A stretch of 59,123 nucleotides of DNA from a virus: IMG/VR virus record IMGVR_UViG_3300032182_000379, positions 6,147 through 65,269 of that record; one strand, written 5' to 3'. The position numbers and the translations under genes were made by a program. Below the pieces are notes generated by a model, which was given only the letters and a program-made list of their open reading frames with translations, was not told the DNA's origin and ran no database searches. The first letter of the stretch is position 1; the number at the start of each line of letters is the position of its first letter. This document shows, piece by piece, positions 38,872-54,027 of this stretch.

Positions 38872-40722
38872 TTAATTATAACTGGACTCTAAAGTAACTC
38901 CAGTTCCAGAAACATTGGAACCGCTGCTGATAACGTCTTCAACAACGTTAACCACAGTATTATCTATGCCAATTGTCAAATAGGTTTCTCTGAGAGAAAT
39001 CAGGTCATTTGACTCTGGAACAGCATTGATACGGATTTGGTTAATTTCATATGGAGTATCTCTAATAATTACATCATTAATTACTACTTCACCTAAGATG
39101 TAGTCAACAGAACCCCACAAACCATCAATAAACTCTTTTTCTCCAGTGTCTTTGACATAGAAAAGTTGAAGCAATCCTTTACCATCATCTTGTAGATAAT
39201 ATGTATTGACCGCATCACCAGCGATATTAAATCCTGTTGTGGTTACTGATGGTTTATCAGTAGAAGAGAAGATGGAATTTCCGTAACAAACTTTATAGTT
39301 TACTCTTGCATTCAAAGTCACAGGAACATTCTTTCTCATCATAATCTTAGTGATATTTGATGTGAATGAGGGATCGGAGTCGTCAATAATCTTTTGCAGT
39401 TTGGAATATTTGAATTTTCCGCCAAATTTGTTAAATTCAGAACCAGAGTTTAAAATATTAAACGCAGCAATGACAATGTTCTTTAGATCTGATTGAGTTC
39501 TACGAGTTAAGTTGGGATTAAAATATACGAAACTTGTAATGTCAATGTAGAGAACCGATGGATCAATAATTTTTGGCTCTACAGCAGCAACAGAGTATTC
39601 TCTAAGTTTTTTGAGAACATTATTTTTCTCTGCAAGAGAAAGTTTATCTGCATTCTTAGGTTTAATTGCTAAGAATACTTTTCCATACTCAGGGGGATCT
39701 GCTTCTTCACCACCGTAAGCGGAGATGGATTGAATGTTTGGATAGATCTGTGGCAATAAGACTTCATAGTCTCTAGTTGATACCGCTCTACCAAAAGCAG
39801 AGTAAAATTTAGGAGCAGAAAACTTAATTGACTCTGTAGATTCTTGAACTGCACCTCCATCTGGATTTTGTACTAGAGTTGTAGTAATTCCAGATGTGAT
39901 TGTATTGCTGTTGTTATCTCTAACTGTACCAATAAAATCAAATGAAGTTAATCCATTTGCACCGCTTCCACTACTGGTAGTGTATGTTACACTAATAACG
40001 TCTCCATCTAGTAGAGCTTTACCTAAAGTGTTGTCACCAAATAATACTTCTGGTCTTCCATATTCAGACTCTTCTAAGAAATAAACTTTAGCGCTACTAT
40101 CAATCTTAGTGATGTCCGTTGCCTTAAGGTAAGACTCAGTAGTAGTTCCGCTAGTTACCTCAACCCTAAGGGTAGTAGTATCAATGTTTTCATTGGTGAG
40201 AATAAATCTTTGTCTTTCACTAGTGTCTCTAACAAAAGTATCAGTTAAGAATACACCCTCATATAAATTGAGATTACTAAATGTTGCAACTCCAGTTAAA
40301 CTATCTACAGAAACACTTTGGTCTGAGTTTGTAGAGAATACAAAGTTATCGTTATCTGGTCCAGTGAAGTTTAATACAATACCTCTTGAAATGGTTACTG
40401 TCTTAGGATATGGAAATGCAGTCTGAATTGCGACGTTAACTGGCATCGACGAAGATCGGGCACTCTTAGGAGTGTATCCGATCATTCTTGCAAGTTTTAC
40501 AACATTCTCTCTAAGAACTGCGGTCTCAAGAAAGTTCTCATTGACAATCAGGTTGGCGTTCATCGCCGTATAATATGTGTTATACGCAAGAACATCCAAA
40601 AGAACAGTCAAAGACGATCCTTCAAAGTCGTAATCCGAAAACTCAGATTGACCTTTTAGGTAATTTTTGATCTGTAACTTAATCTCGTTATATTCTAACG
40701 AGTTTACCTGATTAAATGCCAT
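38872..40722 (-). CDS. 6: Baseplate wedge subunit gp6 (616 aa)
   Basis: MAFNQVNSLEYNEIKLQIKN, YDFEGSSLTVLLDVLAYNTY and NANLIVNENFLETAVLRENV are diagnostic of gp6 (baseplate J-like family), which dimerises to form the ring of the baseplate. Length is close to T4 gp6 (660 aa). YSAFGRAVSTRDYEVLLPQI and the downstream IPYEINQIRI-like part agree. Its ATG shares one base with the gp25 stop, and the gp7-like gene begins 8 nt after its own stop. Confidence 0.92.
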   Translation of the reverse strand: MAFNQVNSLEYNEIKLQIKNYLKGQSEFSDYDFEGSSLTVLLDVLAYNTYYTAMNANLIVNENFLETAVLRENVVKLARMIGYTPKSARSSSMPVNVAIQTAFPYPKTVTISRGIVLNFTGPDNDNFVFSTNSDQSVSVDSLTGVATFSNLNLYEGVFLTDTFVRDTSERQRFILTNENIDTTTLRVEVTSGTTTESYLKATDITKIDSSAKVYFLEESEYGRPEVLFGDNTLGKALLDGDVISVTYTTSSGSGANGLTSFDFIGTVRDNNSNTITSGITTTLVQNPDGGAVQESTESIKFSAPKFYSAFGRAVSTRDYEVLLPQIYPNIQSISAYGGEEADPPEYGKVFLAIKPKNADKLSLAEKNNVLKKLREYSVAAVEPKIIDPSVLYIDITSFVYFNPNLTRRTQSDLKNIVIAAFNILNSGSEFNKFGGKFKYSKLQKIIDDSDPSFTSNITKIMMRKNVPVTLNARVNYKVCYGNSIFSSTDKPSVTTTGFNIAGDAVNTYYLQDDGKGLLQLFYVKDTGEKEFIDGLWGSVDYILGEVVINDVIIRDTPYEINQIRINAVPESNDLISLRETYLTIGIDNTVVNVVEDVISSGSNVSGTGVTLESSYN

Positions 40723-41111
40723 TATGGTTTAAATACTAAATCTAGATTGTCAATCTTGGGTTGAGTGCCCAATATGATGTAATTAATTTTTGCTTGCATG
40801 TCATTGCCAGTTTCATCAAAGATAACTGCAACATCATAACAAGTCACTCTAGGTTCGTAGGAGTTGATGGAATCCTGGATGTTACCCTCCAGTTCAGAAG
40901 CAAGTGTATCCGTATAATTTTCAAAAAGTTGCCTAATTATATTTCCACCAAACTGAGGTAAAAAAGGCTTCTCAAAAAAATTGTACCTAACAATGTTTTT
41001 TACAGACTCTTTAATCGCTTTCTCATTCTTTAGAGTCAAAACATCCTTAGTTACAGGGTTTTTTTCAAATGTTAGACTAAAATCTCGGAAAGATTTTGAA
41101 ACAAACGCCAT
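40722..41111 (-). CDS. 25: Baseplate wedge subunit gp25 (129 aa)
   Basis: A lysozyme-like wedge protein family (GPW/gp25) that starts sheath assembly on the baseplate. Features: FSLTFEKNPVTKDVLTLKNE, then KNIVRYNFFEKPFLPQFGGN and the conserved SYEPRV motif near residue 88 (the EPR signature). Length equals T4 gp25 (132 aa). A late box GATAAATA lies 21 nt upstream. It overlaps gp6 by one base, as a coupled pair. Confidence 0.92.
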   Translation of the reverse strand: MAFVSKSFRDFSLTFEKNPVTKDVLTLKNEKAIKESVKNIVRYNFFEKPFLPQFGGNIIRQLFENYTDTLASELEGNIQDSINSYEPRVTCYDVAVIFDETGNDMQAKINYIILGTQPKIDNLDLVFKP

Positions 41112-41586: not shown

Positions 41587-41901
41587 TCATCCGCCGATGT
41601 AAACCTTTTTTGCGCCTGCTGATAGACCATTGTTGCCTACTGCATCACCGCAATTGACATTAGAACCCAATCTTCCGCATTTTATATTGTTTACATACAC
41701 AGAATTGCTCCCATCAGCGATCCCTCGTGCTGATCCTGCGTGAGTTGTCTGTCCACAAGTGTGTGGAGCATACTGATCACCCACTCTACCGACTTGCATA
41801 TTGCCTGCAAAGACGTTTGAGGACCCCTGTGTGAGGTTTGTTGGGGGAAAACACCCGTGTCCAGTGGATTGACCACCTACTACTGCTGGAGTTGTTGCCA
41901 T
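41587..41901 (-). CDS. 5.4: PAAR-type baseplate spike tip, gp5.4-like (104 aa)
   Basis: Glycine-rich beta protein with the metal-binding pattern of PAAR proteins: GHGCFPP (H15, C17), APHTCGQTTHAGSA (H47, C49, H54), IKCGRLG (C75) and VNCGDAVG (C84). PAAR proteins sharpen the membrane-piercing spike; in T4, gp5.4 sits on gp5. It overlaps the 214-aa gene by one base. Three His and one Cys normally bind zinc, and there are more candidates than needed here. Confidence 0.85.
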   Translation of the reverse strand: MATTPAVVGGQSTGHGCFPPTNLTQGSSNVFAGNMQVGRVGDQYAPHTCGQTTHAGSARGIADGSNSVYVNNIKCGRLGSNVNCGDAVGNNGLSAGAKKVYIGG

Positions 41902-42579: not shown

Positions 42580-42789
42580 TTACCCTCCAAGAGTATTTAA
42601 TCGATCTTCATGGTCACAAACAATATCTACCAGTTTCTCATACTCATCTGAACCAGGACGCCTCATCATCATCTTAGATTCGTTCACACGCTTCTCTAAG
42701 GCATTCACACGCGCCCATAAAAGTTCTAACTCAGCATCATACCTGAGTCTTTCATTGTTTTCAGACTGAATACTTTTCTTTTCCAACAA
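42580..42789 (-). CDS. Small coiled-coil protein, TTG start (69 aa)
   Basis: Only a TTG start gives the full coiled coil (NERLRYDAELELLWARVNAL, EKRVNES); it follows GAGGAG by 7 nt inside the end of the 67-aa gene. The next ATG, at residue 40, would lose most of it. The C-terminus DEYEKLVDIVCDHEDRLNTLGG is also helical. Function unknown. Confidence 0.6.
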   Translation of the reverse strand: MLEKKSIQSENNERLRYDAELELLWARVNALEKRVNESKMMMRRPGSDEYEKLVDIVCDHEDRLNTLGG

Positions 42790-42964
42790 ATTGCTCCTCT
42801 AAGTTGTAGTTCATAACCCAGTTCTCAGTTACCACATAGTAACCACTGATGTTTTCGCCATCACACTGGAAGCCATAGGTCCTCACTTTCTCACACACTC
42901 CATCAATGCAGAACTTCTTGTCACTGTGAAGGTATGAGTGATACCTTTCGTCCAGATTAATCAT
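42761..42964 (-). CDS. Small unknown protein (67 aa)
   Basis: MINLDERYHSYLHSDKKFCI, then DGVCEKVRTYGFQCDGENIS and an end NLEEQFVGKEKYSV. Three cysteines; no recognisable domain. Its end overlaps the coiled-coil gene by 29 nt. It begins 27 nt after the phosphopantetheinyl transferase-like gene and is probably in the same transcript. Confidence 0.65.
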   Translation of the reverse strand: MINLDERYHSYLHSDKKFCIDGVCEKVRTYGFQCDGENISGYYVVTENWVMNYNLEEQFVGKEKYSV

Positions 42965-42991: not shown

Positions 42992-43453
42992 TCAAATACA
43001 CACCGCACCTACAAGCCCCCTAGGTAATCCTGTAATATTGATTATACCATCCTTTACTTCTTTGTCTAAGTTACCTCCGATGGTCAACTTGTCACGTTTT
43101 ACCTTTGCTTCCTTTGCAGTCCATAACTCATAGAACTTTTGTTTGTCAGAGGTGATCTCTGAGGCACTAAAAAATCTACGAGAAATATTTTCAAAGGGAC
43201 GTTCTCTCGTAATCTCAATATCTATGCCGATGGGCATGGATGCTACCGCAACTGCAACGAAGTCGCCGCTGTCGGATTTGTTCCAATGCACAATGGCAGG
43301 TTTTTTGCAACTCAATTTACCCTCCAAGAAATCTGCGATACAAGCTCGGATGATCTTGGAATGACTGATCTGGGGCGACTCGAAAAGGTATACAAGAAAT
43401 TTTTCACCCAAAAAAATTTCTGAAATAGGGATCCTAAGTTTTTCAACGAACAT
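42992..43453 (-). CDS. 4'-phosphopantetheinyl transferase-like protein (153 aa)
   Basis: Enzymes of this family move the phosphopantetheine arm of CoA onto a serine of acyl or peptidyl carrier proteins. Sfp-type motifs appear in order: KKPAIVHWNKSDSGDFVAVA (residues 50-69, the KP...N.SHSG region), PIGIDIEITRERP (D78 and E80 as metal ligands), and FYELWTAKEAKVK (W111, K114, E115, K119). The usual His of SHSG is Asp here. The protein is shorter than Sfp (224 aa) but holds the core. No carrier protein gene is in the window, so the target may be a host ACP or a phage ACP elsewhere. It lies at the border between island and virion genes. Confidence 0.8.
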   Translation of the reverse strand: MFVEKLRIPISEIFLGEKFLVYLFESPQISHSKIIRACIADFLEGKLSCKKPAIVHWNKSDSGDFVAVAVASMPIGIDIEITRERPFENISRRFFSASEITSDKQKFYELWTAKEAKVKRDKLTIGGNLDKEVKDGIINITGLPRGLVGAVCI

Positions 43454-43554
43454 GATAGTACGGACGCGAATGCAAGACTTTATAGATTAGCTCTTTAGGT
43501 ACCATATTAACACGGGCTACGCCCCACCGCAACGGGGGCGGGGGCGACTGCCCC
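43454..43554. other. GC-rich intergenic gap with short hairpins
   Basis: Contains GGGGC/GCCCC (43540-43554) and GGGC-TAC-GCCC hairpins just after the stop of the 52-aa gene, without a clear U-tract. This is also the point where base composition shifts from the AT-rich virion genes to the more GC-rich island. Confidence 0.4.
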
Positions 43555-43713
43555 TCAGTCCTCCCAGAAGATGGGCAGTGCCTCTACTGCCTCGTCGTGG
43601 TAGAGTTCAGCGAAGAGACCAGCGATCGCAGCAGACGATGCACCCAGGGGATGCTCTACGCTGCCGTCATTCATGCACCACACGGTGCGGCGGGTCTGCA
43701 GGTCGGTGCTCAT
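43555..43713 (-). CDS. Small unknown protein (52 aa)
   Basis: MSTDLQTRRTVWCMNDGSVE, then a helical stretch (GASSAAIAGLFAELYHDEAV) and an acidic end IFWED. It has a plain sigma70-like promoter: TTGCCA, 17 nt, TACAAT, with TACAAT at 43752-43747. This is the only island gene seen with a recognisable -35 instead of the palindromic element. Function unknown. Confidence 0.65.
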   Translation of the reverse strand: MSTDLQTRRTVWCMNDGSVEHPLGASSAAIAGLFAELYHDEAVEALPIFWED

Positions 43714-43764
43714 GGAGTAGGTCATCAGTCGGTTGCTGTTGTGTGTATTGTACAGGGTCTGGCG

Positions 43765-43995
43765 TCACTTGGCAACGCCGAAGACCAGATCAGCGATGGC
43801 GTTGGTGTTGGCATCAGTGCGACACCAGCGGTAAGGGTCTGCCTTGGGGTTAGCGGGCACTGCCCAGATCATGCACTCTTCGCCCCATGCCTGAGCGATG
43901 CGGTAAGCGTGGTTCATGTCGGTTGCCCAGTCGCAACCGTGGGGGTCAAAGGTGCCCCATGCTGAGGGTTGGACTGCGAAGGTCATGGTGGGCAT
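43765..43995 (-). CDS. Small unknown protein (76 aa)
   Basis: MPTMTFAVQPSAWGTFDPHG, then HAYRIAQAWGEECMIWAVPA and a polar C-terminus. Rich in Trp and Ala. Preceded by promoter TATAAT at 44024-44019 that lies just past the stop of the 38-aa peptide gene. Function unknown. Confidence 0.7.
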   Translation of the reverse strand: MPTMTFAVQPSAWGTFDPHGCDWATDMNHAYRIAQAWGEECMIWAVPANPKADPYRWCRTDANTNAIADLVFGVAK

Positions 43996-44018
43996 CGGTC
44001 GTTTGCGTTGTTGATCTA

Positions 44019-44072
44019 ATTATAGAGGGTCAGCGGCACAGGTGCTGTTGGTGCAGTGCCACTCCTGCAACC
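44019..44072 (-). promoter_or_regulatory. Palindrome-linked promoter (copy K, variant)
   Basis: TATAAT, then 28 nt upstream an AGTGGCACTGC element; the exact copies have 27 nt. The element is inside the 38-aa peptide gene. Drives the 76-aa gene. Confidence 0.45.
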
Positions 44073-44146
44073 GCACCCTGTCGGATGTAGTCTGCAGCGA
44101 AGACGCCAACGATAAGGGCGAGGGAGACGGATGCAATGAGTTTCAT
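44030..44146 (-). CDS. Short membrane or signal-like peptide (38 aa)
   Basis: MKLIASVSLALIVGVFAADY has a positive start and a 16-residue hydrophobic run, then a short polar tail ending QQHLCR. It could be an inner-membrane peptide or carry a signal sequence with cleavage near VFAA. It follows the 69-aa gene by 7 nt and is probably co-translated. Too short for homology by eye. Confidence 0.55.
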   Translation of the reverse strand: MKLIASVSLALIVGVFAADYIRQGAVAGVALHQQHLCR

Positions 44147-44153
44147 GATAGAA

Positions 44154-44363
44154 TCAGTCGCGGTCGGAAATGTTCCAGACGCCCCAAGCGGGGGCATCGA
44201 TCAAGTCGTTTGCAGCACGGCGGCACTGACGAGCGCGGCGGTCTGCCTCCAGACACTCCATCGCGATGGACTTCAGAAAGGGGTTGGATGCATAGATGCC
44301 GTCATCATCGAAGAGGGACTGTGCCATGGGGAAGTCGGATGGTTTCATGGGTTTGTTGTTCAT
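44154..44363 (-). CDS. Small unknown protein (69 aa)
   Basis: I start it at ATG 44363 (MNNKPMKPSDFPMAQSLFDD) and not further upstream, because the upstream part overlaps the next gene and its promoter. Then come a helical cysteine-containing stretch (ECLEADRRARQCRRAANDLI) and the end VWNISDRD. Function unknown. Confidence 0.65.
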   Translation of the reverse strand: MNNKPMKPSDFPMAQSLFDDDGIYASNPFLKSIAMECLEADRRARQCRRAANDLIDAPAWGVWNISDRD

Positions 44364-44369
44364 GGGTCT

Positions 44370-44419
44370 ATTGTAGGTCAATTGAAGACGTAACCCGACT
44401 CGAAGGGGACAGTCTGTCC
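44370..44419 (-). promoter_or_regulatory. Palindrome-linked promoter (copy L, variant)
   Basis: TACAAT at 44375-44370 and a perfect GGACAG-T-CTGTCC palindrome at 44407-44419. The distance from -10 to the inner GACA base is 32 nt, equal to the exact copies. It lies within the 3' end of the 105-aa gene and serves the 69-aa gene. Confidence 0.5.
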
Positions 44420-44695
44420 ATTGTCCATGATGTACCAAGCGAAGTCTTTCTGAAACACGCCGTCGGTAGCACCGTTGCAGAACTCATTGATCAAAGCGTT
44501 CAAACGGGACTTAGTGGTGTTAGACTGCCAACCGCCGTCAAAGATCCGCATCCATGTGTCGGTGATCTCTGCAATCTTGTTTCCATGGAGTCGGACGGTA
44601 GAGACGCTGCCGACGGTCTCGACACAGGTGTTGGAGTTGGACCAGTTCTTGCCTGCGTTGATAGCGGCGTTCATTTGGGATTCGATCTTACGCAT
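44378..44695 (-). CDS. Phage protein with VRLHGN/SRLNAL motif, unknown function (105 aa)
   Basis: MRKIESQMNAAINAGKNWSN, then TVRLHGNKIAEI and WQSNTTKSRLNALINEF. The pattern (short N-terminal helix, strand with LHGN-IA, then T-SRLNAL) recalls a small protein family spread among phages, to my recollection; function unknown. Has its own promoter of the palindromic type. Confidence 0.72.
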   Translation of the reverse strand: MRKIESQMNAAINAGKNWSNSNTCVETVGSVSTVRLHGNKIAEITDTWMRIFDGGWQSNTTKSRLNALINEFCNGATDGVFQKDFAWYIMDNGQTVPFESGYVFN

Positions 44696-44725
44696 GATGT
44701 GGTGGGGTGATTGGTTGATGTCTTA

Positions 44726-44785
44726 ATTATAGCGGTCAGAGGGTGGGGCGGCGAGCACCGATGTGCCAGTTCACCCACTGTCCCA
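44726..44785 (-). promoter_or_regulatory. Palindrome-linked promoter (copy J, variant)
   Basis: TATAAT at 44731-44726, 28-nt gap, then AACTGGCACATC, with the other arm GGACAGTGG. It lies within the last codons of the 74-aa gene. Serves the 105-aa gene. Confidence 0.5.
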
Positions 44786-44960
44786 ATGACCTGTCACCAG
44801 ACAGCAGAAGCGCTACGATGTCACGCTTGCGAGTTTTGTAGGTGTACTCTACCAGCGGACCTTTGAACCAGCGAACTTTGAACGTACCTGTGAGCGGGTT
44901 AACCTTGAGAGTCCAGACGCTCTGTGAGACTGAAGGGGAGCAGGTGTTGATGCTGATCAT
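44736..44960 (-). CDS. KTSC-like small protein (74 aa)
   Basis: Start chosen at MISINTCSPSV because the longer frame would begin within the -10 box. The core (WTLKVNPLTGTFKVRWFKG, EYTYKTRKRDIVALL, SGDRSLGQWVNWHI) has the order of a KTSC domain: strand, F.G..Y.Y, helix, S.G..N. KTSC proteins are small and often encoded beside lysyl-tRNA or phage genes; their function is unclear. A second KTSC-like protein is at 46702-46956. Confidence 0.62.
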   Translation of the reverse strand: MISINTCSPSVSQSVWTLKVNPLTGTFKVRWFKGPLVEYTYKTRKRDIVALLLSGDRSLGQWVNWHIGARRPTL

Positions 44961-44982
44961 GTGGTTCGTTTGGTATGTACCC

Positions 44983-45039
44983 ATTATAGGCACAGGGTCA
45001 GACGGTTTGGGGTCGGTGGTGGACAGATGCTAGACTGTC
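44983..45039 (-). promoter_or_regulatory. Palindrome-linked promoter (copy M, variant)
   Basis: TATAAT at 44988-44983 and GACAG/CTGTC arms at 45022-45026/45035-45039, one nt further away than in the exact copies. Serves the KTSC-like gene. Confidence 0.42.
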
Positions 45040-45109
45040 ACCCTTCTAGGATCATCATGATGATCAGCAGCAGCATTCCAAACCCTTTGAGGATTTTCTT
45101 TGTCATCAT
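45038..45109 (-). CDS. Tiny hydrophobic peptide (23 aa)
   Basis: MMTKKILKGF then GMLLLIIMMILEG: a basic N-terminus and a single hydrophobic helix. Its ATG overlaps the stop of the 55-aa gene (ATGA), the usual sign of coupled translation. Too short to name; membrane insertion is inferred from composition. Confidence 0.5.
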   Translation of the reverse strand: MMTKKILKGFGMLLLIIMMILEG

Positions 45110-45273
45110 TCAGCGGGGAAGTTTTTGCAGACAGCATTACAAAGGACACGGATCAAATCCTCCATGTCGTCTTCACTAATCCATGGACTATTGTGCTGGG
45201 TAAACTCTTCGACGATTCCATCAATGTCCCACATGAGTTGTTCGCGTTGGGAGAGCATTTTGAGTCGATCCAT
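45106..45273 (-). CDS. Small acidic unknown protein (55 aa)
   Basis: Start set at MDRLKMLSQREQ; the longer frame overlaps the upstream gene for over 100 nt. Acidic and helical (DIDGIVEEFTQH, ISEDDMEDLIRVLCNAVC). It lies 10 nt after the 63-aa gene and is coupled to the 23-aa peptide. Unknown function. Confidence 0.65.
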   Translation of the reverse strand: MDRLKMLSQREQLMWDIDGIVEEFTQHNSPWISEDDMEDLIRVLCNAVCKNFPAE

Positions 45274-45283
45274 GATAGTAAAC

Positions 45284-45475
45284 TCAGAAAGGGTTGGTCC
45301 AGTTGTCACATTGGCGCTGTGAGATCTCATCACATTTGCAAAGCATATCGACGAAGTTGTTCCACTCCTCACGCTTGGCAATTGTATCACCTCGCCATGA
45401 TGGATTCTGCTTTACAAAGACTTTCCAGTTGTAGCGGAACTGTTGCAGAACTTGTGCTTTTGTGTAATGGCGCAT
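45284..45475 (-). CDS. Small unknown protein with QxQCDNWTNPF end (63 aa)
   Basis: MRHYTKAQVLQQFRYNWKVF, WNNFVDMLCKCDEISQRQCD and NWTNPF. The C-terminal pattern (two short helices around an acidic turn) is partly shared with the 57-aa protein at 50560-50733 (YECLIECDSLNQHICKRICK), suggesting a small family. First gene of a three-gene unit. Function unknown. Confidence 0.68.
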   Translation of the reverse strand: MRHYTKAQVLQQFRYNWKVFVKQNPSWRGDTIAKREEWNNFVDMLCKCDEISQRQCDNWTNPF

Positions 45476-45495
45476 GTGGTTTTGTAACTGTTCTC

Positions 45496-45551
45496 ATTAT
45501 AGACACAGGGTAAAAGGGAATGCGACCTGCTGTGTGACACTTTGCCAACTG
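45496..45551 (-). promoter_or_regulatory. Palindrome-linked promoter (copy I, variant)
   Basis: TATAAT at 45501-45496 and AAGTGTCAC about 34 nt upstream (two nt longer than the exact copies), with CAGTT as the weak opposite arm. The gap 45476-45599 also holds CTGACC/GGTCAG and CGCCCT/AGGGCG inverted repeats, which may terminate the 67-aa gene. Confidence 0.42.
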
Positions 45552-45599
45552 ACCCTGGTCAGCCGCCCTGATTAACATTTAAGGGCGACACAGTTAGTG

Positions 45600-45803
45600 T
45601 TAGATAAGGGGTTGCATTCTCACGACCTCAGGTGCTGTATCATCCACCTGAATAGTGATAATGTGAAAGTGAGGATTGAGGCGCTGGCATGTAGCGATTG
45701 CCTCCTCTCTTGTCTCAGCAATGTAACTCAGAATGTCCCACTGTTGATGACCATTAGGGCGGATATGTTCGCCGTAGAGATTGAACTTAGTCTCTTCAAT
45801 CAT
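45600..45803 (-). CDS. Small unknown protein (67 aa)
   Basis: Start at MIEETKFNLYGEHIRPNGHQ; longer versions run through the upstream gene. Alpha/beta ferredoxin-like layout: strand, helix (TREEAIATCQRL), strand (HFHIITIQVDD). Overlaps the 51-aa gene by 8 nt. Function unknown. Confidence 0.65.
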   Translation of the reverse strand: MIEETKFNLYGEHIRPNGHQQWDILSYIAETREEAIATCQRLNPHFHIITIQVDDTAPEVVRMQPLI

Positions 45804-45951
45804 AGGGGAAAAATGAGGATGAAGTGGAACCTGTGTAGTAAGGAAAGGGTGCAGCATCCTCCCCGAACATTTGGTAGTAGAGTTCGCTAAAGATAGCGAA
45901 ATCGTCTGGCGTTTCGTTATTCCAGACTTTCAGGATTGCATCGTAGTTCAT
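45796..45951 (-). CDS. Small acidic unknown protein (51 aa)
   Basis: MNYDAILKVWNNETPDDFAI, then LYYQMFGEDAAPFPYYTG and an SSSFFPYD tail. The start at 45951 is directly after the stop of the 57-aa gene. Acidic and aromatic. Unknown function. Confidence 0.6.
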   Translation of the reverse strand: MNYDAILKVWNNETPDDFAIFSELYYQMFGEDAAPFPYYTGSTSSSFFPYD

Positions 45952-45952
45952 A

Positions 45953-46126
45953 TCAGTTACCGTGGAAGGCATCGTGTGCATCAAGGACGAAATCTATGAC
46001 TTCATCAGTTGCACTAACGTTAAAACGGTCGCAGTACCAATCAACGCACATGTCTGCAGGGAACATAGTATCGAACATGAAATCCTGGAGTTCTTGGAGA
46101 GTGTTGGTCATCTGTGTTTTGTTCAT
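45953..46126 (-). CDS. Small unknown protein (57 aa)
   Basis: MNKTQMTNTLQELQDFMFDT, then DMCVDWYCDRFNVS and ATDEVIDFVLDAHDAF. Acidic and helical, two nearby cysteines. It heads a three-gene unit. A weak relative of the palindromic element (GTGGCACACT, with CAAGG opposite) lies about 31 nt above a poor TATACC box, so its promoter is uncertain. Confidence 0.65.
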   Translation of the reverse strand: MNKTQMTNTLQELQDFMFDTMFPADMCVDWYCDRFNVSATDEVIDFVLDAHDAFHGN

Positions 46127-50871: not shown

Positions 50872-51378
50872 TTAAGATATCTGAATATTTCCTGAGATTA
50901 TTATACGCTCATGGTCACACTCATGTGGAGGAACATAGTGCAGGTCTGTAGAGCTAAAGAACGCTAATACTCCTGTGCTAGGTGTAATTAATGCTGCTGG
51001 TGGCATCCATGGACGTTCTGGATCAGGAAACACCAGAGGAGCACAATCAGGACAGGCATCAATGTACCAAATAAAAGATTGCACGTATCCTGGGTCTGGG
51101 TGCATATGAATTACAGCATAATCACCACGTTTGTATACACCACCCCACATTTCACATACTTCTACACATCCATGACGATCAATCAGCAAGTCATTTGCCA
51201 TAACATTGATCTGTTCTGTAATTTCCCAGAACGCTTCATCCTGATGCATGGTCCAGTGGGTCACGTCGCATTTAAGACTTGACCCTCTATCGTTCTTATC
51301 ACCAATGTTCTTGATATAGTCAGCGATCCAGAAGTCTGGTTCTAAGTATCTGACCTGTGGGTTTACTCTGCGTGGCAT
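50872..51378 (-). CDS. 2OG-Fe(II) oxygenase-like protein (168 aa)
   Basis: Start at MPRRVNPQVRYLEPDFWIAD. The core AVIHMHPDPGYVQSFIWYID, then CPDCAPLVFPDP, LITPSTGVLAFFSSTDLHYV and ERIIISGNIQI follows the double-stranded beta-helix of Fe(II)/2-oxoglutarate oxygenases: H91 or H93 and D95 as first ligands, H147 as distal ligand, R158 for 2OG. Such enzymes hydroxylate protein or nucleic-acid targets, and several kinds are common in cyanophages. The spacing of ligands is unusual enough that activity is not certain. It overlaps the metallopeptidase-like gene by 16 nt. Confidence 0.68.
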   Translation of the reverse strand: MPRRVNPQVRYLEPDFWIADYIKNIGDKNDRGSSLKCDVTHWTMHQDEAFWEITEQINVMANDLLIDRHGCVEVCEMWGGVYKRGDYAVIHMHPDPGYVQSFIWYIDACPDCAPLVFPDPERPWMPPAALITPSTGVLAFFSSTDLHYVPPHECDHERIIISGNIQIS

Positions 51379-51800
51379 GTATACTCCTGATATAGTTTCT
51401 CTTGCATACCAAATGCTTCTACCTCCCATGGTTCATCCTCGTAGGATGTTTCAGAGGATATAACATCTCCCATCCATTTATTCGTAAACTTAGGAGCAAA
51501 TCTCTGCTGGTGTCGATTGCGGAGACGTTGCTCAACGTGCATTAGTTCATGAAACAACGTGACGAGATACTGTTTAGCATCTAGACGATTGTCCAGTTCA
51601 ATAAGAAACTCCCTAGGAAAAGACAAGGATGATGTTGTTGTGCAAGCACCATCCATGTGTTCATGCCAGCATCGACGATCCTTCACCTCAATGTGAAAAC
51701 TGAGGCGGTTGAGGTTACGATGTTTGGTAAACCATTCGATTGCATCCCTAACGATGCGCTTTCGGTTGCGATAACCACTAAACGTGACGTGACAAGACAT
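51363..51800 (-). CDS. HExxH metallopeptidase-like (SprT-like) protein (145 aa)
   Basis: HELMHVEQ at 84-91 gives the zinc motif HExxH, and EPWEVEAF at 123-130 supplies a possible third ligand Glu, as in small phage metalloproteases. The N-terminal part is alpha/beta (RIVRDAIEWFTKHRN, LSFHIEVKD). SprT-like proteins cut DNA-bound or partner proteins; a processing or host-takeover role here is only a guess. Next to the oxygenase-like gene, overlapping it. Confidence 0.62.
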   Translation of the reverse strand: MSCHVTFSGYRNRKRIVRDAIEWFTKHRNLNRLSFHIEVKDRRCWHEHMDGACTTTSSLSFPREFLIELDNRLDAKQYLVTLFHELMHVEQRLRNRHQQRFAPKFTNKWMGDVISSETSYEDEPWEVEAFGMQEKLYQEYTCHAE

Positions 51801-52228: not shown

Positions 52229-52287
52229 ATCATACACACTGGAGGAGCGCATCTGAGCGTGCCTGTGACAGTTTTGCTTCTGTCACA
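52229..52287 (-). promoter_or_regulatory. Palindrome-linked promoter (copy G, exact 27-nt spacing)
   Basis: TATGAT at 52234-52229, 27 nt, then CTGTCACAGG; TGTGACAG/CTGTCACA is a perfect 8-bp palindrome. All of it is inside the methyltransferase C-terminal codons and stop. Serves the 67-aa gene. Confidence 0.62.
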
Positions 52288-53204
52288 CGTTCCTGAGCGA
52301 GTTTGGCGTATTCTTCCTCCTTTTCTACTAGTATGTAGTTTCTATTTGATTCTACCGCAGCAACACCAGTGCTGCCACTCCCAGCGAAACAATCAAGAAC
52401 AGTATCACCAGGATCGGTGCAATGCTCAATAATATTTTTGAGGAGCGGAATTGGTTTAGGAGTGATGTGACCTTGTTTATTAGAGTCGAAATCATAGTTC
52501 CAAACGGAATGATGTGTGCATTTATTACGGAACTTAGGAACCAAATCATCCATAGTGAGACCAAGATGCTTTGTAATTGGAACGATTGTATCCACTGTGG
52601 GATAATTCTTTCCTGTCTCGATGTTGCTATACCACCCTGTAAGTTTGCCATTCTTGCTCAGGATCTCCCTGCTGATGTCACTGGACTTGATATTGCGCTC
52701 CATGCGTCTCTGTCGTAGTTTCTTGTGCAGATCCTTGCGCGTATAGAACATGATATACTCTGAGATCTTCTGGAAGTTGTTGAGTCCTTTGACCTGAACA
52801 AATCCATTCAAGAAACCCTCCTGCTTTGCACCAGAAAATAGTTTGTTCCAGACAATAAAGTTACGGTATTCTAGATCTGTGCTCTGCTGGATGCGCCGAT
52901 CCAGTTCTGCCATGATACGAAAGTCATTGTGGAAGAACCAGAATGATCCACTATCCTTCATCACTCGCGCACACTGGACAAAAACTTCCTCCATCCAGTC
53001 ATAGTAACACTCACCAGAGTAAGGTTTAGGTTGATACCCTCTCTTGGTGTAACCAAAGTTGTCCCAATCATCCTTCCCAATGTTGTAGGGAGGATCAATT
53101 AGGACAAGATCTACAGACTTATCAGCGAGTTTTTGTAACTGCTTTAGGCAATCGCCTTGGATTAGTGTGGAGATAGGCTTGTTTGAGGATGGGCGCAATT
53201 TCAT
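52230..53204 (-). CDS. DNA methyltransferase with inserted helix-turn-helix (324 aa)
   Basis: Start at MKLRPSSNKPISTLI. Motif IV LIDPPYNIG (residues 35-43) comes first and the AdoMet motif I CFAGSGSTG (272-280) comes last: a beta-class amino-methyltransferase, DPPY pointing to N6-adenine (N4-cytosine possible). Between them, about 163-225 (RRMERNIKSSDISREIL, NGKLTGWYSNIETGKNYP, LGLTMDDLVP) reads as an XRE-type helix-turn-helix in the place of the target-recognition region. The upstream HNH-type gene overlaps it by 83 nt, so they may form a restriction-modification pair. Methylation could also protect phage DNA. Confidence 0.85.
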   Translation of the reverse strand: MKLRPSSNKPISTLIQGDCLKQLQKLADKSVDLVLIDPPYNIGKDDWDNFGYTKRGYQPKPYSGECYYDWMEEVFVQCARVMKDSGSFWFFHNDFRIMAELDRRIQQSTDLEYRNFIVWNKLFSGAKQEGFLNGFVQVKGLNNFQKISEYIMFYTRKDLHKKLRQRRMERNIKSSDISREILSKNGKLTGWYSNIETGKNYPTVDTIVPITKHLGLTMDDLVPKFRNKCTHHSVWNYDFDSNKQGHITPKPIPLLKNIIEHCTDPGDTVLDCFAGSGSTGVAAVESNRNYILVEKEEEYAKLAQERVTEAKLSQARSDALLQCV

Positions 53205-54027
53205 CGAGAGGAGTGTCTGACTGGATAAGGTTGGAACGGCGTGTAAGAGGGAGAATGTTACCTCCACGAGTCATATATTTACTGTCACTGAGCGGAGTAA
53301 CATGTCCGAACTGGATCTGATACGGAGAACGATCATCATCAATAGTATACCACTCTGGTTCAAGAATGTCACCTAGGATAGGATCACACAGATAACCATC
53401 CTTGGCGATGTAGATACCGCGCTTATGATATTCTTTCACCAGACGAAATGCGTGCATGAGCAGTTTGTCATGCACATCAGCGGGCATAGTGTAAGTAACA
53501 CCCTTCTGCATGAGCAACAATGCCGCAAAGTCGAACTCTGCTGTTGCTACAGTGAAACTAGTTCCCGCATTTTCTAGAGGAATACCTGCCTTGAGTTTGA
53601 CTCTTTGCTTCAGGTTGTACTCATTACGCACCTCAGTCTCCTGACGCTTGGTAATCTGTACAGGAAAAGTGCGCTTACAACGATTCTTAAACAGCACGTC
53701 ATCTGCACCAGGCGCAGTGTTGCAGTCTTTTATCTTGTTAGCAAACTTGTCAGTATAGAAACCAGCAAGAGTAGAGCGGCACTTGCCACTGTGACCCTTT
53801 GGAAGACAACAAATAGCGCCACTATGGTTGTTGTAGAAGTCATCATAGAAGTCAGATTCCGCAGCAGTGATGTCAACTTGAGCAAGGCGAGCGAGAGATT
53901 CAGAGAACGTTCTCTGCCTTACACCACCATTACAAGTCTTACCGCAGATGTAATCCTTGTATGGACTGGTTTCTTGGAAGTCTACTGCCTCAGCGACAGC
54001 AGCACGGTTTTGAGGGGTGATAAGCAT
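53122..54027 (-). CDS. Probable HNH endonuclease paired with the methyltransferase (301 aa)
   Basis: A cysteine-rich N-terminal half (C28-x3-C32; CCLPKGHSGKC at 73-83) looks like a zinc site. At 240-266, FGHVTPLSDSKYMTRGGNIL followed by PLTRRSN has the HNH pattern: H242, then GGN (N257), then R-x-N. Many type II restriction enzymes have such a domain, and it is directly followed and overlapped by a DNA methyltransferase. Restriction activity is inferred from motif and context; a homing-type or replicative nuclease is the alternative. No clear SD is visible. Confidence 0.7.
   Translation of the reverse strand: MLITPQNRAAVAEAVDFQETSPYKDYICGKTCNGGVRQRTFSESLARLAQVDITAAESDFYDDFYNNHSGAICCLPKGHSGKCRSTLAGFYTDKFANKIKDCNTAPGADDVLFKNRCKRTFPVQITKRQETEVRNEYNLKQRVKLKAGIPLENAGTSFTVATAEFDFAALLLMQKGVTYTMPADVHDKLLMHAFRLVKEYHKRGIYIAKDGYLCDPILGDILEPEWYTIDDDRSPYQIQFGHVTPLSDSKYMTRGGNILPLTRRSNLIQSDTPLDEIAPILKQAYLHTNPRRLPKAVTKTR

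Follow-up and report, generated by a model that had tools for sequence, protein, structure and literature searches.

What a phage would do with an enzyme that activates carrier proteins is the question raised by a small gene in the window, i.e., the whole stretch of 59,123 nucleotides analysed here, which covers most of a 65,269-base record of a marine cyanobacterial virus. The gene is an open reading frame with an ATG start at 42992..43453 on the minus strand, exactly where a first-pass annotation had placed it, and encodes a phage 4′-phosphopantetheinyl transferase (PPTase) of 153 amino acids. The motifs KKP (residues 50-52), HWNKSDSG (56-63), GIDIE (76-80) and WTAKEAKVK (111-119) follow one another as listed here, and that annotation gives the positions of D78, E80 and E115 correctly. 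The protein is an orthologue of cyanophage T4-GC 500 and matches PHROG 23098 (3e-27 over residues 22-152), and the location of its gene upstream of PAAR-gp25-gp6 agrees with this assignment.

The PPTase locus and its known relatives

The genes downstream of the PPTase gene lie on the same (minus) strand. The downstream neighbour (42761..42964) belongs to PHROG 6312 and has no assigned function; a similar gene is found in contig G009, which is without the PPTase. Beyond it are the conserved neighbours, namely a PAAR-motif protein (41587..41901), a gp25-like baseplate wedge protein (40722..41111, recognized by its position and order) and the gp6 baseplate wedge (38872..40722). The window gp6 shares 69-72% identity with its counterparts in P-HM1, P-HM2 and MED4-213, which infect Prochlorococcus MED4, compared with about 41% for the next cyanophages, which puts the phage beside Eurybiavirus. 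All three of these phages have a PPTase at the same site, with small genes followed by PAAR, gp25, gp6 and gp7. Orthologues of the PPTase were found in 53 IMG/VR contigs. The dN/dS values among six of the closest copies range from 0.13 to 0.27, and the gene is under purifying selection. The late-promoter pattern shows no excess within the window. A GC-rich patch (50-60% in places) that is full of short open reading frames lies at 43500-46000 amid the low-GC structural genes. Also on the minus strand are a 2OG-Fe(II) oxygenase-like protein (50872-51429; PF13759, 2.9e-6) and a DNA N6/N4 methylase (52230-53267; Pfam, 2.7e-43), and the latter has a weak helix-turn-helix match at residues 213-242 that is apparently inserted within the methylase domain.

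The first-pass annotation regarded carrier-protein activation as an unusual task for a phage. The gene is less novel than this implies, because the copies in P-HM1 (PHM1_077) and P-HM2 (PHM2_076) are already annotated as 4′-P-pantetheinyl transferase, and Sullivan et al. 2010 listed an acyl carrier protein (ACP, T4-GC 457) together with its synthase (T4-GC 500) in these two phages (PMC3037559). The T4-GC 500 proteins of P-HM1 and P-HM2 share the genome site, the length and the KSD motif with the window PPTase, but are only about 38% identical to it. The window represents a sister sublineage to P-HM1/P-HM2, known here from metagenome contigs only. The PPTase gene is an already known cyanophage gene, and it is the phage-specific change in the CoA pocket that merits follow-up. 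In the literature, we found neither a description of the altered active site of the phage PPTase nor a paper on the function of the ACP/PPTase pair, and the main text of the P-HM2 transcriptome paper mentions neither gene.

Fold and active site of the phage enzyme

The PPTase-like identity proposed from the motifs is borne out by profile and sequence searches. The window PPTase passes the curated cutoff of the Pfam ACPS profile (PF01648; 4.7e-9, 36.7 bits, cutoff 25), the PDB entries clearly related to it in sequence are those of Sfp (1qr0, 1.4e-7), and the whole phage-family profile matches Sfp at 1.1e-9; similarity of this degree is far above what chance would give. It stays below the curated NCBIfam cutoffs of pantethn_trn (24.2 against 45.35 bits), AusB (41.3 against 225) and HetI (21.4 against 370). 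An AlphaFold2 model built on an alignment of 29 phage copies is confident (pLDDT 86, pTM 0.81), and its best solved match (VIA) is 4mrt (Z 12.2, 129 residues, rmsd 3.0), in which Sfp is complexed with CoA and a peptidyl carrier protein. Fold comparison thus also supports the PPTase identity; profile search and structure prediction were checks named in the first-pass annotation. The next structural matches are human PPT, PcpS and mycobacterial PPTases with Z of 9-11; the Sfp-type enzymes Sfp (1qr0/4mrt) and human AASDHPPT (2c43, Z 10.1) have the two-subdomain alpha/beta fold in common with the model.

AcpS-type holo-ACP synthases have a single such domain per chain and act as trimers. AcpS (1f7l) aligns only with the C-terminal half of the model (residues 74-153; Z 8.1 over 78 residues), with the same chemistry, whereas the phage protein has both halves and is therefore Sfp-type rather than AcpS-type. 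Since Sfp, human PPT and PcpS align over almost the entire length of the model (Z 10-12), the fold as modelled is the two-subdomain Sfp type. The phage enzyme shares the metal ligands, the catalytic Glu and Lys and the Ser of the SHS motif with Sfp-type PPTases, but differs from them in several respects. It has 153 amino acids rather than about 225 (the Sfp type spans about 200-250, and the median of the cellular enzymes is 224), and the stretch after WxxKEAxxK is of 34 amino acids compared with mostly 47-86. In the SHS motif, His is replaced by Asp and the hydrophobic residue before Ser by Lys. All phage copies have SDS/T instead of SHS/T, and the phage enzyme should thus be considered a variant of the Sfp type, not a canonical member.

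Residues D78, E80, E115 and K119 align with D107, E109, E151 and K155 of Sfp, and D61 aligns with H90. The metal ligands D78 and E80 are in GIDIE (43214..43228, minus strand), and E115, the base or metal ligand, and K119, the acid, are in WTAKEAKVK (43097..43123, minus strand), with roles taken from human PPT, in which Glu181 serves as base and Lys185 as acid (PMC2148441). K59-S60-D61 (43271..43279, minus strand) corresponds in the phage enzymes to the (I/L/V)-S-H motif that cellular enzymes have at the CoA 3′-phosphate. We compared the phage enzymes with cellular PPTases from bacteria at large and from cyanobacteria in a single alignment of 29 phage rows and 66 cellular rows, the latter including two pairs that are the same gene met twice. 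D78, E80, E115, K119 and W111 are invariant in all these rows. In contrast, all 29 phage rows have Asp at position 61, where 65 of the 66 cellular rows have His; at position 59, 28 of the 29 phage rows have Lys or Arg and all 66 cellular rows have a hydrophobic residue. SD[S/T] is present in all 52 readable phage PPTase open reading frames. The KKP motif is indeed present in the window protein, but its Lys residues are not conserved in the phage family, where only C49 and P52 of this region are kept.

In human PPT, the side chain of the equivalent His contacts the CoA 3′-phosphate and its main chain the alpha-phosphate, and in Sfp the 3′-phosphate is held by Lys28 and Lys31 (PMC2148441). Mutants at these CoA contacts bind CoA more weakly, and the arginine mutants turn over faster (PMC2148441). 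In the model of the phage enzyme, just five residues separate strand two (19-25) from the first helix (31-43), and, judging from these lengths, the segment bearing Lys28/Lys31 in Sfp seems to have no counterpart. The S-D-[S/T] motif in every phage copy, together with the shortening, makes the CoA 3′-phosphate pocket look rebuilt, and the most economical reading is that this would have happened in an otherwise competent enzyme. The earlier suggestion that SDSG may alter substrate handling is strengthened by these results, as the His-to-Asp change occurs without exception throughout the phage family, accompanied by a change from a hydrophobic residue to Lys two residues earlier. It is possible, if doubtful, that phage PPTases no longer need the 3′-phosphate, their pocket having been remade by these two changes and by loss of the Lys28/Lys31 segment. 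Such enzymes might take 3′-dephospho-CoA or release the product faster than the host enzyme, as dedicated partners of a long-tailed phage ACP whose gene lies among those for the baseplate and tail. The conserved change in the pocket poses a sharp biochemical question, in an enzyme that is small and soluble and for which a phage (P-HM2) and its host (Prochlorococcus MED4) are in culture; the minimal enzyme, if active, may also serve as a compact labelling enzyme.

The phage acyl carrier protein

P-HM1, P-HM2 and MED4-213 each encode one protein with a PP-binding domain; its gene comes shortly past the gp5 genes, ahead of cpeT or close to it. Using two ACPs of the phage type as queries against 50,697 phage records, we obtained strong high-coverage matches from these three phages only, and the weaker matches are ACPs of other phages. 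The PPTase query retrieved the same three phages from the phage records, plus two weak matches in gut phages. In IMG/VR, 126 loci encode the phage-type ACP, and the attachment Ser of the DSL motif is kept in 80 of the 80 loci fetched. The phage ACP matches the solved ACP 2ehs (1.1e-12); a structure model made without an alignment was poor (pLDDT 45) and was set aside. In the loci read, the phage ACPs are of 139-184 amino acids (e.g., L075 10001-10426 and L021 1238-1768); the usual ACP domain is extended at the N terminus and followed by a C-terminal tail that is charged and variable. No acyltransferase or synthase family was found among the scanned near neighbours of the ACP gene.

Both genes are present, about 25 kb apart, in the sister contig G001, and its PPTase shares 95% identity with that of the window. 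The distance between the ACP and PPTase genes is about 22-25 kb, and they do not form an operon. A search for an ACP with a DSL motif, also proposed in the first-pass annotation, came up empty in the window's own contig (by PF00550 or by motif) and succeeded in its close relatives, where the DSL serine is invariant. Colinearity between the window and G001 extends through the final base of the window, at about 72.8 kb in G001 coordinates, and the ACP of G001 lies at 81.9-82.1 kb. The contig thus stops about 9 kb before the ACP site would be reached, and finding no ACP in this record tells us nothing about the phage itself. Similarly, searches of nine PPTase contigs (30-90 kb) yielded no ACP, but at least five of these contigs, by their coordinates, run out within about 21 kb on the upstream side of the PPTase and are equally uninformative on the ACP. 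Among the PPTase-bearing genomes sampled at both sites, the ACP is present in four of four (P-HM1, P-HM2, MED4-213 and G001), all of one lineage. Since the three isolates belong to one clade, this co-occurrence is close to a single event.

The reverse dependence does not hold. Neither the phage profile nor Pfam detected a PPTase in G007 (189 kb) or G009, although both contigs have gp6 and the ACP; in G009, the PAAR gene, a coiled-coil gene and the PHROG 6312-like gene are all there and the site of the PPTase is vacant. Strict dependence between ACP and PPTase is therefore rejected: either the ACP needs no phage PPTase or a host enzyme serves, and a host enzyme can probably substitute. These observations suggest that the ACP would be the older or more needed member of the pair, and that the PPTase would free ACP activation from the host.

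Candidate function, origin and host enzymes

We consider it probable that the gene encodes an active Sfp-type PPTase which makes the phage's own ACP holo. During infection, the enzyme would bind Mg2+ and CoA via D78, E80 and E115; E115 would activate the serine of the carrier protein and K119 would protonate the leaving group. In this way, 4′-phosphopantetheine would be moved onto the phage ACP, encoded upstream after gp5 in the relatives and, in the phage of the window, presumably beyond the end of the contig. The holo-ACP could then bear acyl groups for some phage purpose. A virus with both a carrier and its arming enzyme could control acyl transfer in the host without the host activating enzyme. 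What speaks against this explanation is that G007 and G009 have the ACP alone, that the co-occurrence in the isolates comes from one clade, that the two genes are far apart, and that the His-to-Asp change and the shortening could impair CoA binding.

Alternatively, the gene might encode a decayed or repurposed protein that has kept the fold and the metal site and binds another nucleotide, or the carrier only, with no transfer of phosphopantetheine. The invariant Asp in place of a residue that reaches the CoA 3′-phosphate through its side chain (PMC2148441), the length of 153 against a median of 224 amino acids, and the short loop ahead of the helix at 31-43, where Sfp carries Lys28/Lys31, would all fit such decay. 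But all the catalytic residues, including the acid/base pair, are invariant over very divergent phage copies, selection on the gene is purifying, and the basic residue at position 59 that accompanies D61 looks like part of a rebuilt pocket, and we regard loss of transferase activity as very unlikely. The first-pass annotation had offered two uses for an active enzyme, i.e., keeping fatty-acid synthesis running or modifying a phage carrier protein elsewhere, and the latter is favoured over the former because an ACP is found in close relatives, with its DSL serine invariant. If the enzyme were directed at the host, the host ACP would be its main substrate, and the added PPTase capacity would sustain fatty-acid and membrane synthesis in infection. 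Extra enzyme could matter to likely hosts with a divergent PPTase, and metabolic genes are commonly carried by cyanophages; yet the phages with the PPTase carry their own ACP too, and most T4-like cyanophages do without a PPTase gene, which makes a host-directed role unlikely.

In a quick maximum-likelihood tree, whose deep branches are long and poorly resolved, the phage copies form one clade (SH-aLRT 99); a second clade (100) holds the picocyanobacterial enzymes, and the phage copies are not nested in it. Recent capture of a host gene is not supported by this separation, and the phage PPTase, as far as the tree indicates, is not a recent host copy. The picocyanobacterial (HetI-like) PPTase of the probable hosts is also Sfp-type, with a Trp and a Lys-rich stretch after the catalytic Lys, but is of about 220 amino acids and has an S-H-C motif. 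The small cyanobacterial genomes examined are, judging by their size (1.6-1.9 Mb) and GC (down to 29% at the PPTase loci), probably Prochlorococcus-like and would be likely hosts. A host without its own PPTase was also considered; the small genomes missed the Pfam cutoff, but with the phage profile a divergent enzyme turned up in seven of nine, which mostly removes this case. In six loci from small high-AT cyanobacterial genomes (L270, L271, L274, L275, L276 and L278), the PPTase falls below the Pfam cutoff and has S-H-C and W-C-A-V-E-A, with Val replacing the usual Lys of WxxKEA.
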